Assembly (NCBI RefSeq): GCF_003363015.1
Contig: NZ_QRAP01000013.1
Span: 52,329-116,328, forward strand
Source of the DNA: Enterobacillus tribolii
GTDB lineage: Bacteria > Pseudomonadota > Gammaproteobacteria > Enterobacterales > Enterobacteriaceae
DNA length: 64,000 bases
Direction: 5' to 3'
Within the stretch, counting starts at the first letter, position 1. Every line of letters begins with the position of its first letter. Positions 8,224-34,478 of this stretch are shown piece by piece. The position numbers and the translations under genes were made by a program. The notes under the pieces were generated by a model that made no database searches, had not been told where the DNA came from, and saw only the letters and a program-made list of their open reading frames with translations.

Positions 8224-9672
8224 TCAGGCGCTCCGGGTGACGCGGGTGACTTCCTCCAGCGACGTCACGCCCGCCAGCACGCGCTCCAGGCCGCTCTGGT
8301 ACAGGGTTACGCCGCGCAGGCGCTGCGTCAGTTCAGCCTCATCGCCGCCGCGCTGGATAATGCTGCGCAGAACATCATCAACCGGCAGCAATTCATGGAT
8401 CGCGGTACGCCCGCGGTAGCCGGTAAAGTTACAGGCCGGGCAGCCAACCGCGCGGAAAACCCGGCTGCCGGCGGGCAGCGGCCCGTCTTCACCGGCGTTG
8501 TATGGGCGGCGGCATTCCGGGCACAGCACCCGCACCAAGCGTTGCGCCATCACGCCCAGCAGCGACGTCGCCAGCAAAAACGGCTCGACGCCCATGTCAC
8601 GCAGACGCGTCACCGCGCCCGCCGCGCTGTTGGTATGCAGGGTGGAAAGCACCAGATGGCCGGTCAGCGAAGCCTGTACCGCAATCGAGGCGGTTTCGCC
8701 GTCGCGGATTTCCCCCACCATCACCACGTCAGGGTCCTGACGTAAAATAGCGCGCAGGCCGCGCGCAAAGGTCATGTCGACCTTGCCGTTCACCTGGGTC
8801 TGCCCGATGCCGGGCAGATCGTATTCGACCGGATCTTCGACCGTCAGAATGTTGCGCTCTTTGCTGTTGAGCTGGCTCAGTGCCGCATACAACGTGGTAC
8901 TTTTCCCCGAACCGGTCGGCCCGGTGACCAGAATGATGCCGTGCGGCTGCGCCAGCAGCACCTCGGTTTGTTCACGCAGCGCCGGCGTCATTCCCAGTGC
9001 GGCCAGATCCAGCCGCACGCTGTTCTTGTCCAGCAGACGCAGCACCACCCGTTCGCCATGATTGGCGGGCAGCGTGGACACGCGCACATCAATGGCGCGC
9101 CCGCCGATACGCAGGGCGATGCGGCCGTCCTGCGGGATGCGTTTTTCCGCGATATCCAGCCGGGCCATGACCTTAATGCGCGAAACCAGCAGCGCAGCCA
9201 GGCGGCGCTGCGGTTGCAGAATTTCGCGCAGCACGCCGTCAATGCGGAAACGAATGCTGAGATGGCGCTCGAATGTTTCGATATGGACATCGGACGCCCC
9301 TTCTTTGATCGCCTCGCCCAGCATGGCGTTGATCAGGCGGATAATCGGCGCGCCGTCATCGCTCTCCAGCAGGTCATTCTGCTCCGGCAACTCTTCCGCC
9401 AGCGCGTAGAAATCCATTTCATTGCCCAGCTCCGCCATTACGCGCCGTACCTGGCCATTTCCCGCCTGATAGCCGTCAACCAGATGCCGCTCAAAGTCGT
9501 CGTTTTCCACCACCTGAACCCGCAACGGCGCGGCGGCCACGCGCCGGGCCTCCTGCAACGCCGCCGCCGTAACGCCGGCGCGGCACAGCAACAGTGCGCC
9601 GCCCTCTTCGTTTTGCGTCAGCAACACGCCGTGGCGACGGGCGAAGGCGGCGCTCAGCAACGGTTCCGTCAT
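8224..9672 (-). CDS. outE: T2SS secretion ATPase OutE (GspE)
   Basis: 482 residues. The N1/N2 domains precede the RecA-like domain with Walker [10 protein letters not shown] at 251-259, an Asp box and Walker B around [13 protein letters not shown] zinc tetracysteine motif follows (CPEC about 30 residues before CPAC). It powers pseudopilus assembly from the cytoplasmic face through OutL and OutF. It overlaps outD by 4 bases. Confidence 0.97.
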
Positions 9673-32208: not shown

Positions 32209-32742
32209 TTAACCTCTCCGACGACGATGAGCAGGCGCATTGCGGCCGGACGGCGGCACGCTCTCCTGCAACGGCAGAACCACCGGCGCGAACTCTTTCA
32301 TCACCCGGCGGTAAACATCTCGTTTAAAAGATACAACCTGTCGCACCGGATACCAAAAACTTACCCAGCGCCACCCGTCAAACTCGGGCGTACTGCTTTG
32401 CTGCACGTCAATCGCAGCATCGCCGCTCTGCAATTGCAGCAAGAACCACTTCTGTTTCTGGCCGATGCAAACCGGTTTTGTATCCCAACGCACCAAACGT
32501 TTCGGTAATTTATAGCGCAACCAATTGCGGGTTGAGGCCAATACTTTTACGTCCTTGCGCCCCAGCCCCACTTCTTCAAACAGTTCACGGTACATCGCCT
32601 GCTCAGCCGTTTCGCCGGGATTTATTCCGCCCTGAGGAAACTGCCAGGAGTGCTGACCGTAACGACGGGCCCATACTACCTGCCCCTGCCGATTACAGAT
32701 TACGATACCAACATTCGGGCGGTAGCCATCATCATCGATCAC
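32209..32742 (-). CDS. rppH: RNA pyrophosphohydrolase RppH
   Basis: 177 residues with a full Nudix box ([23 protein letters not shown] region, about 38-60; the key residues are the REx2EE glutamates). It removes pyrophosphate from 5' triphosphate mRNA ends to trigger RNase E decay. It is the first gene of rppH-ptsP, and its upstream region holds the DARS2-like locus. Confidence 0.97.
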
Positions 32743-32841
32743 CGGACTACCTCAATAACGCAAATCGCAAGATACGATGATTGTTTCACACTCCCCGGTG
32801 GCGGTAAACCACTGGTTCACAGGAGTTAGCGCTGGACGACA

Positions 32842-33121
32842 TCTGGATAACTCAGATCGGCCACCCGAGTTATGAACAGCCCGATGGCGGGAAATGCGGT
32901 TTTATTCACTTTTTCTGTGGATATATTTGTGCAGAACTTAAGGGAAAAGCCGGTAAAACTTCGGATAACCTTACGGAGGGGAAAAGAATAAAGTTATTTT
33001 ACTTTTTATTATTCAAATAAATAGTGATTTCCCCACAGCATGGAAACGTATAAAAATGTGATATTCAGCAACTCTATGCATTGCTGTGGCGAAAGATCAA
33101 TCAACGCCTTTTTTATCCACA
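32842..33121. promoter_or_regulatory. Outlying DnaA boxes and IHF-like site of the rppH-mutH gap
   Basis: DnaA boxes lie outside the core. TCTGGATAA at 32842-32850 and TGTGGATAT at 32916-32924 each have one mismatch on the minus strand, and there is a perfect TTATCCACA at 33113-33121. Just before the perfect box, AATCAACGCCTTT (33099-33111) is an IHF-like match with one mismatch. The stretch 32980-33060 is very AT-rich. Confidence 0.65.
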
Positions 33122-33187
33122 GATTGATTGTCAAAGTTGTGTGCAGAGGCGTCAATTTCGCAAAAAACCGCCCCAGTCAAGCCTGTA

Positions 33188-33240
33188 AATCAAACCAGTG
33201 ATTGGATAACCTGGCCGTTATCCCAAAAATCTGTGGATAA
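33188..33240. promoter_or_regulatory. DARS2-like DnaA-reactivating locus, core
   Basis: Three tightly spaced DnaA boxes: TTATCCAAT (minus, 33201-33209), TTATCCCAA (plus, 33218-33226) and a perfect TTATCCACA (minus, 33232-33240). An IHF-like AATCAA-N4-GTG lies at 33188-33200. E. coli DARS2, which promotes ADP-to-ATP exchange on DnaA and needs IHF and Fis, is in the same mutH-rppH intergenic space and has a three-box core. Position plus box cluster makes this its likely counterpart. The 750 bases between rppH and mutH hold no gene. Confidence 0.8.
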
Positions 33241-33498
33241 CTTAGTGTAAGATCCTGTTCATTGTCAGTGTCTATCCGTGCACAATAGAAAATCGCCGCT
33301 CACTTACGCACACAACGAAAAATAAAACTGTTTGTTAATCATGGTATTATTGATAACTTCGTGGTGATGGCGATAACGCGGCAGTAAAAGCGATTATTTC
33401 AGCTCATTTTTTAACCACTCCGCATTCACTCTTTCAACGTTAGGGTTGCCAATGAAGAACGCTCTCCGACAACAATGTTGCAGGATGAAAATCCGCCG

Positions 33499-34185
33499 AT
33501 GAACGGCCCTTCGGTTTCTCAGACCCCGCCTTCCAGCCCGGCTCAGCTGTTGGAACGCGCCCGCGCGCTGGCGGGTTACAGCCTGGGTGAGCTTGCCACG
33601 CTGGCCGGCGTGGCGATTCCGCGCGATCTGCGGCGTGACAAGGGTTGGGTCGGCATGTTGCTGGAACTGTACCTGGGCGCCAGCGCGGGCAGCAAACCGG
33701 AGCAGGACTTCCCCGATCTCGGCATCGAGCTGAAAACGATTCCGATCGACGCGGCGGGAAAACCGCTGGAAACCACCTTCGTCTGCGTCGCGCCGCTGAC
33801 CGGCAACAGCGGCATTACCTGGGAATCCAGCCACGTACGGCATAAGCTCCAGTGCGTGTTGTGGGTGCCGGTTGAAGGCGAACGGGCCATTCCGCTCGCC
33901 GAACGCCGCGTGGGCGCGCCGCTGCTGTGGCGGCCGGATGAGGAAGAAGAGGAGCGCCTGCGCCGCGACTGGGAAGAACTGATGGATATGATCGTGCTCG
34001 GTAAGGTGGAACGCATCACCGCCCGTCATGGCGAAGTGATGCAGATCCGCCCCAAAGCGGCCAACAGCCGCGCCCTGACGGAAGCGGTAGGCGAACGGGG
34101 CGAGCCGATCATGACGCTGCCGCGCGGCTTTTACCTGAAGAAGAACTTCACCGCCGCCATCCTGGCACGCCACTTCCTGATATAA
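33499..34185 (+). CDS. mutH: DNA mismatch repair endonuclease MutH
   Basis: 228 residues from ATG 33499. An ATG at 33475 gives 8 more residues, but the E. coli alignment and the CAGGA upstream favour 33499. The catalytic D-x6-E-x-K is in [11 protein letters not shown]. It nicks the unmethylated strand at hemimethylated GATC after activation by MutS-MutL. It is divergent from rppH across the DARS2-like region and 74 bases from ygdR. Confidence 0.97.
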
Positions 34186-34259
34186 ACCCGACTTTTTCAC
34201 CCCGTTTGCTACGCTTAATGCTACGGGCGGGTTGCGTCCGTTTATATCAGGAGGATTCC

Positions 34260-34472
34260 ATGCACAAACATCTGTTCACCGCGTTGGCTATCGCCATCGT
34301 GCTCAGCGGTTGCTCCAGTGACTACGTGATGTCGACCAAAAGCGGTCAGATGATCGTTACTCAAGGCAAGCCTAAAATCGATAAACAAACGGGCATGACC
34401 AGCTATATCGATCAAGACGGCAACGCCCGTCAGATCAATACCGATGAAGTTTCAGAAATGGTTGAGAAATAA
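34260..34472 (+). CDS. ygdR: YgdI/YgdR-family small lipoprotein (DUF903)
   Basis: 70 residues from ATG 34260, which has GGAGG 5 bases upstream. Lipobox LSGC is followed by a compact DUF903 SH3-like domain (SDYVMSTKSGQMIVTQGKPK). Function is unknown in the family. Location after mutH matches E. coli ygdR, although ygdQ is missing between them. Confidence 0.9.
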   Translation: MHKHLFTALAIAIVLSGCSSDYVMSTKSGQMIVTQGKPKIDKQTGMTSYIDQDGNARQINTDEVSEMVEK

Positions 34473-34478
34473 CGCGGA

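Follow-up and report, generated by a model that had tools for sequence, protein, structure and literature searches.

A second triad of DnaA boxes at a nearly fixed distance from the DARS2 core in Enterobacillus tribolii and its relatives

The gap between rppH and mutH in Enterobacillus tribolii, which is almost certainly an orthologue of E. coli DARS2, contains two triads of DnaA boxes with the same layout, and the distance between these triads is held nearly to the base pair in most of the related genomes examined. From the comparison of these sequences, we lean towards the view that the two triads, located 316 bp apart, dock DnaA together in one complex folded by IHF and Fis, in which DnaA-ADP would be recharged. 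A well-studied element appears to hold a conserved and metrically fixed half in many genera, yet this half proved dispensable in the plasmid test used and does not appear in a current drawing of the site.

Results and Discussion

Identification of the DARS2 orthologue and its core

The window, which is the whole stretch of 64,000 nucleotides that was analysed, forms the end of a 116-kb contig in a draft genome of 4.93 Mb and 39 contigs. The element is flanked by divergent rppH and mutH genes, which is the setting expected of DARS2, and the gap from the rppH start to the longest mutH frame measured 732 bp, instead of the 750 bases of the original prediction (Table 1). The gap was aligned to 5,374 of the 5,426 complete E. 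coli genomes, with 52% of its length covered at 69.7% identity in the five alignments shown, and the arrangement of rppH, mutH, and ptsP in E. coli is the same as in the window. The proposal that the gap corresponds to the interval of E. coli DARS2 was borne out by the interval itself, by a core with the DARS layout, and by the conserved block at box V. Since it has already been described in PMC8682772 that DARS2 is kept outside E. coli, including Erwinia carotovora atroseptica, Yersinia, Photorhabdus, and Rahnella, its presence in a new lineage was expected. The locus itself is ordinary and simply adds one lineage to a known site.

Both perfect TTATCCACA boxes that had been predicted were found at 33113 (plus strand) and 33232 (minus strand), together with the two predicted one-mismatch boxes at 32842 and 32916 (both on the minus strand). 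The genome contains 102 copies of TTATNCACA in 4.93 Mb, compared with 47 copies of the reversed pattern, and because the boxes are so few, the presence of two perfect ones 119 bp apart is unusual. The number of boxes with up to one mismatch in the whole window was 11, which is not unusual, as 13 of 100 shuffles reached the same number.

For the comparative analysis we used 107 distinct gaps, a set that is redundant at the genus level, with many from Enterobacter and Serratia. The duplicate of the own locus (L010) and one identical gap were left out, and the stretches fetched for L026, L029, and L039 contained no rppH-mutH pair.

The deletion of DARS2 boxes I-III in E. coli allowed us to locate the core, since the primers quoted in PMC4585315 end at positions 9135 and 9171 of the E. 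coli locus (L001) and enclose TTATTCACCTTTTCTGTGGATAGAGTTGTGAAGAA. The counterpart of this core in the window is 32902-32936, where 31 of the 35 bases are identical, box I faces box II, and boxes II and III are in line, with spacings of 5 and 3 nt. According to the review PMC5742627, this box spacing with an opposed box I is common to DARS1 and DARS2, and the DARS layout is thereby given independently of the right-hand boxes described below. The original prediction had placed a three-box core at 33201-33240, which is misplaced by about 300 bp, and because of this shift the fragment proposed for testing (33180-33260) contains neither the core nor the two activator-site positions. Although a perfect box and a facing partner are indeed present at 33201-33240, the E. 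coli core maps elsewhere, and the first box of the predicted triple falls where conservation is low (33201-33217, mean 0.54), so that we find it hardly credible that 33201-33240 is the DARS2 core of this lineage. The predicted triple failed as a core, but it overlaps a second triad at 33218-33252.

Table 1. Positions of the features in and around the rppH-mutH gap, numbered from the first letter of the window
Feature	Position	Strand	Remarks
rppH	32209..32742	-	
rppH-mutH intergenic gap, almost certain DARS2 orthologue	32743..33474	.	732 bp
Core box I, TTATTCACT	32902..32910	+	8/9
Core box II, ATATCCACA	32916..32924	-	8/9; faces box I at 5 nt
Core box III, TTCTGCACA	32928..32936	-	8/9; 3 nt from box II
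Position equivalent to the second IHF site of E. coli	33011..33023	+	109 bp from box I; 2-mismatch IHF match
Conserved block at the E. coli FBS2-3 position	33091..33112	.	mean 0.78; contains GATC 33095-33098
Box V, perfect TTATCCACA	33113..33121	+	211 bp after core box I, 105 bp before box I'
Conserved element GTCAAGnCTGTAAAT...	33176..33199	.	present in 92 of 100 gaps
Right triad box I', TTATCCCAA	33218..33226	+	7/9
Right triad box II', perfect TTATCCACA	33232..33240	-	faces box I' at 5 nt
Right triad box III', TCTTACACT	33244..33252	-	7/9; 3 nt from box II'
Conserved extension of the right triad	33253..33270	.	18 bp; mean 0.84
mutH, longest frame	33475..34185	+	

Properties of the second triad

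The second triad at 33218-33252, here called the right triad, shows the same DARS layout with a facing box I' and spacings of 5 and 3 nt, in which the facing pair is firm and the third box is weak. Boxes I' and III' match the consensus at 7/9 positions, whereas boxes I and III of the DARS1 and DARS2 cores of the same genome match at 8/9, and by this measure the right triad falls short of a second core. In some other families, boxes I' and III' are closer to the consensus. The mean conservation over the 107 gaps was 0.84 for the right triad and 0.86 for the core, compared with 0.47 and 0.50 for two spacer stretches. The GTCAAGnCTGTAAAT element is positioned 42 bp ahead of box I' in 91 of the 92 gaps in which it occurs, and no match to IHF or Fis was seen by eye within it (33176-33199).

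Triads were scored on the DnaA consensus alone, using a threshold of 21/27 that was chosen after the E. coli case had been seen. At this threshold at least two plus-strand triads were present in 103 of the 107 gaps, while shuffled gaps contained 0.001 on average. Among the 100 gaps with a strict core, the right position scored as a triad in 98 and box V in 15. Sixteen gaps contained three triads, the third of which mostly starts at box V (15 cases), so that layout counts alone overstate the matter. The triad layout test is not strand-specific, with the other strand also scoring in 46 of 100 gaps, chiefly through the facing pair read backwards with a third box of 4-7/9. When the gaps were reversed without being complemented, 14 of 107 scored on one strand and 1 of 107 on the other.

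Several smaller features were observed in the gap. GATC is found beside box V (33095-33098) and at box III' (33251-33254), and both copies are conserved, for which a link to Dam and SeqA is possible. The annotated ygdT gene of E. coli (L001 9331-9477, minus strand) runs through the right triad, and its start codon falls on the 3 nt that separate boxes II' and III'. At the corresponding position the window reads CTT and lacks that start, and ygdT may be an annotation artefact. Further conserved blocks are located near mutH (33323-33348 and 33402-33420) and near rppH (32776-32813), and these are perhaps promoters or leaders.

Fixed spacing between the two triads

Absence of the boxes from sister species had been named as one result that would speak against the predicted locus. 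Both triads were found with strict patterns in 100 of the 107 gaps, and the seven gaps without one or both were excluded from the spacing counts. Across these 100 gaps, the distance from the core to the right triad was 316 bp in 91, 315 bp in six, 314 bp in two, and 317 bp in one (SD 0.38). The distance from the core to box V was 211 bp in 95 gaps, and that from box V to the right triad was 105 bp in 90. The lengths of the flanks were far more variable, with SD values of 5.9 from the rppH start to the core and 8.9 from the right triad to mutH.

A two-triad pattern, which could detect spacings of 301-331 bp only, was matched in 235 of the 392 genomes and in 86 of the 154 genera of the family, and its reversed control was matched in none. 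Among the 150 matching places listed, the spacing was 316 bp in 132 and 313-315 bp in 17, and one place (G136) showed 301 bp. Many of the 157 genomes missed by the pattern are reduced genomes, and by eye about 32 of them are at least 3 Mb in size. Three of these larger missed genomes were examined, and two of them (G014 and G031) contain both triads 315 and 316 bp apart with an altered box II. In the third (G026, locus L245), about 2.8 kb is inserted between box V and the right triad, and a relative that is 97.8% identical there has box V and the right triad intact. The insertion covers L245 4731-7536 and contains a frame that is transposase-like by eye; it constitutes a natural allele that parts the two triads. 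A 401-bp query that covers both triads was recovered over at least 80% of its length in 5,373 of the 5,426 E. coli genomes.

We compared insertions and deletions in 2,500 random pairs out of 4,950, using segments that are 75-95% identical. The spacer contained 1.58 indels per 100 bp (397 pairs) and the two flanks 1.93 and 1.97 (724 and 125 pairs). Among the pairs with indels, the length was kept in 324 of 341 for the spacer, compared with 102 of 568 and 20 of 99 for the flanks, where neither the pair counts nor the gap counts are phylogenetically independent. Because equal length forces the indels to sum to zero, it is the similar indel rate that is informative here. The sequence of the spacer drifts while its length holds.

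Two-triad loci in other families of the order

When 62 loci representing 23 additional families of the order (numbered with the prefix f) were examined, 33 contained two or more triads, eight contained one, and ten contained none, and the remaining 11 were without a divergent rppH neighbour. At least one two-triad member was found in nine or ten of the 23 families, with the case of f2 (105 bp) being doubtful. Members of one family tended to show similar spacings. The spacing was 355 bp three times in f13 and 354 bp three times in f17, 340-341 bp in f12, 301-303 bp in f16, and 333-338 bp in f25, while four of the five f6 loci showed 334-336 bp and the fifth 298 bp. Split spacings were seen in f10 (301 and 318-319 bp) and f20 (315 and 347 bp); f5 showed 266 bp, and f11 has a second, lower-scoring set at 316 bp. 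In f12, f13, f16, and f17, three loci each repeat the spacing to within 2 bp. We also considered a rule by which the boxes would be on the same face of the helix, since 105, 211, and 316 bp are near 10, 20, and 30 turns, and rejected it, as the spacings of the other families mostly depart from multiples of 10.5. A core without a second triad was found in all five f21 loci and in the single f22 locus (L037, L213-L216, and L164), and these loci are natural comparisons for the role of the second triad.

Comparison with E. coli DARS2 and other DnaA binding sites

The gap in the window and E. coli K-12 DARS2 occupy the same interval and agree in the layout of the core, and in both of them box V is found at 211 bp and the right triad at 316 bp. 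They differ in four bases of the core and in the matches to the IHF and Fis consensus, which are weaker in the window, and E. coli DARS2, unlike the window, contains an additional box, TTTTTCACA, located ten bases ahead of box I'. In the published text covered, the right boxes of E. coli DARS2 are not treated as a second triad, and no earlier description of a second triad is found in the covered literature on DARS2, figures and the primary papers of 2009 and 2019 aside.

Three DnaA peaks within DARS2, with enrichment values of 78, 199, and 213, are given for E. coli ChIP-seq in a table of PMC11317965, which ties the first two peaks to the core double box and the third (213) to the right double box. 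When we mapped these peaks on NC_000913.3, they were positioned near the core, box V, and the right triad; version.2 is cited in the paper, although its numbers agree with version.3. Boxes II-III and II'-III' of E. coli both appear as double boxes in Table 1 of that paper, the second pair being shifted by one base and given a gap of 2 nt in place of the 3 nt used here.

In the plasmid test reported in PMC4245941, the right half of E. coli DARS2 was dispensable and the core was required for extra initiation, a core deletion being inactive on the plasmid. By arithmetic from the lengths stated there, the right triad would belong to the dispensable right half. A paper from 2026 draws DARS2 as 256 bp (PMC13036160), which is too short to reach the right triad. 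The plasmid test, this drawing, and the insertion allele described above show that the right triad is non-essential in those settings, and its retention is left unexplained by them. Boxes IV-VI had at first been called dispensable as well (PMC4245941), and a negative-feedback role of box V, exerted via weak neighbouring boxes, was demonstrated later (PMC8682772).

The right triad was also compared with other DnaA binding sites. DARS1, which is located upstream of uvrB and has its copy in the own genome at C8:76540, shows the same triad layout and differs in that each of the eight 3-kb loci examined contained one triad only. A third double-box match in the own genome (C11:4638) is located ahead of polA; this double box differs from the triads in being without a facing box I, and we rejected it as a DARS triad. 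The feedback cluster formed by box V and FBS2-5 in E. coli (PMC8682772) resembles the right triad in that a single perfect box is accompanied by weak ones. With its start 105 bp past box V, the right triad is taken here to be outside that cluster.

IHF and Fis sites and protein partners

The IHF-like sites that had been predicted beside the boxes did not stand out clearly from chance, as one match was found with up to one mismatch compared with 0.38 in shuffles, and five with up to two mismatches compared with 3.06. In E. coli, a pair of IHF sites 3 bp apart is positioned at 93 and 109 bp, and the window contains at 109 bp a two-mismatch match, which is not above chance. No match to the Fis consensus with up to one mismatch was found in the window, the conserved FBS2-3 block included. 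The protein partners of DARS2 are encoded in the genome: DnaA shares 91% identity with its E. coli counterpart and has the listed DARS-interaction residues unchanged, Fis is present, and there are four proteins of the IHF/HU family, which places IHF at the level of this family, as PF00216 does not tell IHF from HU.

Possible roles of the right triad

In E. coli, ADP-DnaA molecules bound to boxes I and II meet head to head and lose ADP, which requires IHF bound at IBS1-2 and Fis bound at FBS2-3, and ATP-DnaA around box V displaces Fis (PMC8682772, PMC4245941, PMC10380432). DARS2 of the window would likewise recharge ADP-DnaA to DnaA-ATP before the start of replication. We suggest that the right triad, with its perfect box and weak partners on both sides, may hold a DnaA assembly, and that bending by IHF and Fis would bring this assembly at a fixed distance to that of the core or of box V, where it would either supply ADP-DnaA or help to shut the site off. 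The fixed spacing points to a functional coupling of the right triad with the rest of DARS2, which we consider somewhat more probable than not, and the chances that the triad aids reactivation rather than shut-off appear about even. As a more tentative generalisation, DARS2 could be a two-station machine, in which a second triad, kept at a family-specific distance from the core in many families of the order, folds back as a working half via IHF and Fis bends to load or unload DnaA, and the distance would be part of the timing of replication. If the right triad works together with the core, it would provide a concrete part for the question of how the binding and release of IHF at DARS2 are timed, which is described as open in the 2023 review PMC10380432.

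A rather unlikely, if serious, alternative to joint docking is that the right triad serves as a landing or titration site for DnaA, or as an anchor for ATP-DnaA that switches DARS2 off together with box V, and releases no ADP. Its dispensability for extra initiation on the plasmid (PMC4245941) and the strongest DnaA ChIP peak of the DARS2 locus (PMC11317965) are consistent with this explanation. The history of box V, which turned from a dispensable box (PMC4245941) into a feedback site (PMC8682772), also fits, as does the likeness of the right triad to box V in its combination of one perfect box and weak neighbours. However, pure titration needs neither a spacing fixed to the base pair nor a box I' that faces box II'.

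The conservation of the right module might also be unrelated to DARS2, if the module were an operator or promoter of mutH or of an unannotated transcript. Its position upstream of mutH and its long conserved extension would agree with this, but no plus-strand sigma-70-like site was found in 32700-33550 and no match to Rfam was obtained up to E = 1, and we rejected both the promoter and the RNA readings. Moreover, the distance of the module to mutH varies while that to the core barely does (SD 8.9 and 0.38, as given above), and we regard an operator or promoter as improbable. That the fixed spacing is inert, either because few indels have arisen by chance in related genomes or because unseen intervening sites constrain it, seems very improbable to us. 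Related genomes do have a common ancestry, and in E. coli it is of consequence where the IHF and Fis sites are placed with respect to the core (PMC4245941). Against this, the indel rate of the spacer is close to that of the flanks and yet its indels cancel, the distance from box V to the right triad is fixed independently, and the four families f12, f13, f16, and f17 each repeat a spacing of their own.

Lineage and gene order

The locus had been assigned to Pectobacteriaceae, but it looks like one from Hafniaceae, judged by its MutH match and by the junction of ftsB and ptsP. The closest named MutH match is that of Hafnia alvei (85%), and among 80 named loci the ftsB-ptsP junction occurs only in Hafnia (L040) and Edwardsiella (L107), both of which belong to Hafniaceae. 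In 76 of the 80 loci lgt is beside ptsP, and two loci (L079 and L099) were unreadable. The idea that mutH, DARS2, and rppH move as a block gains slight support from the adjacency of rppH and mutH in all 80 named loci; the gene order itself looks like the outcome of one rearrangement with a breakpoint next to ptsP. No ygdQ match was found at 34186-34478, between mutH and a ygdR-like frame, whereas the Hafnia and Edwardsiella loci (L040 and L107) do have one.

The distance from dnaA to DARS2, computed from coordinates, was 0.19-0.23 of the chromosome in five other chromosomes, DARS2 being characteristically located about one fifth of the chromosome from the origin. The value for Edwardsiella was 0.18 when the scaffold was taken as the whole circle, which suggests that the rearrangement of gene order left the DARS2 distance of Edwardsiella near the common value.
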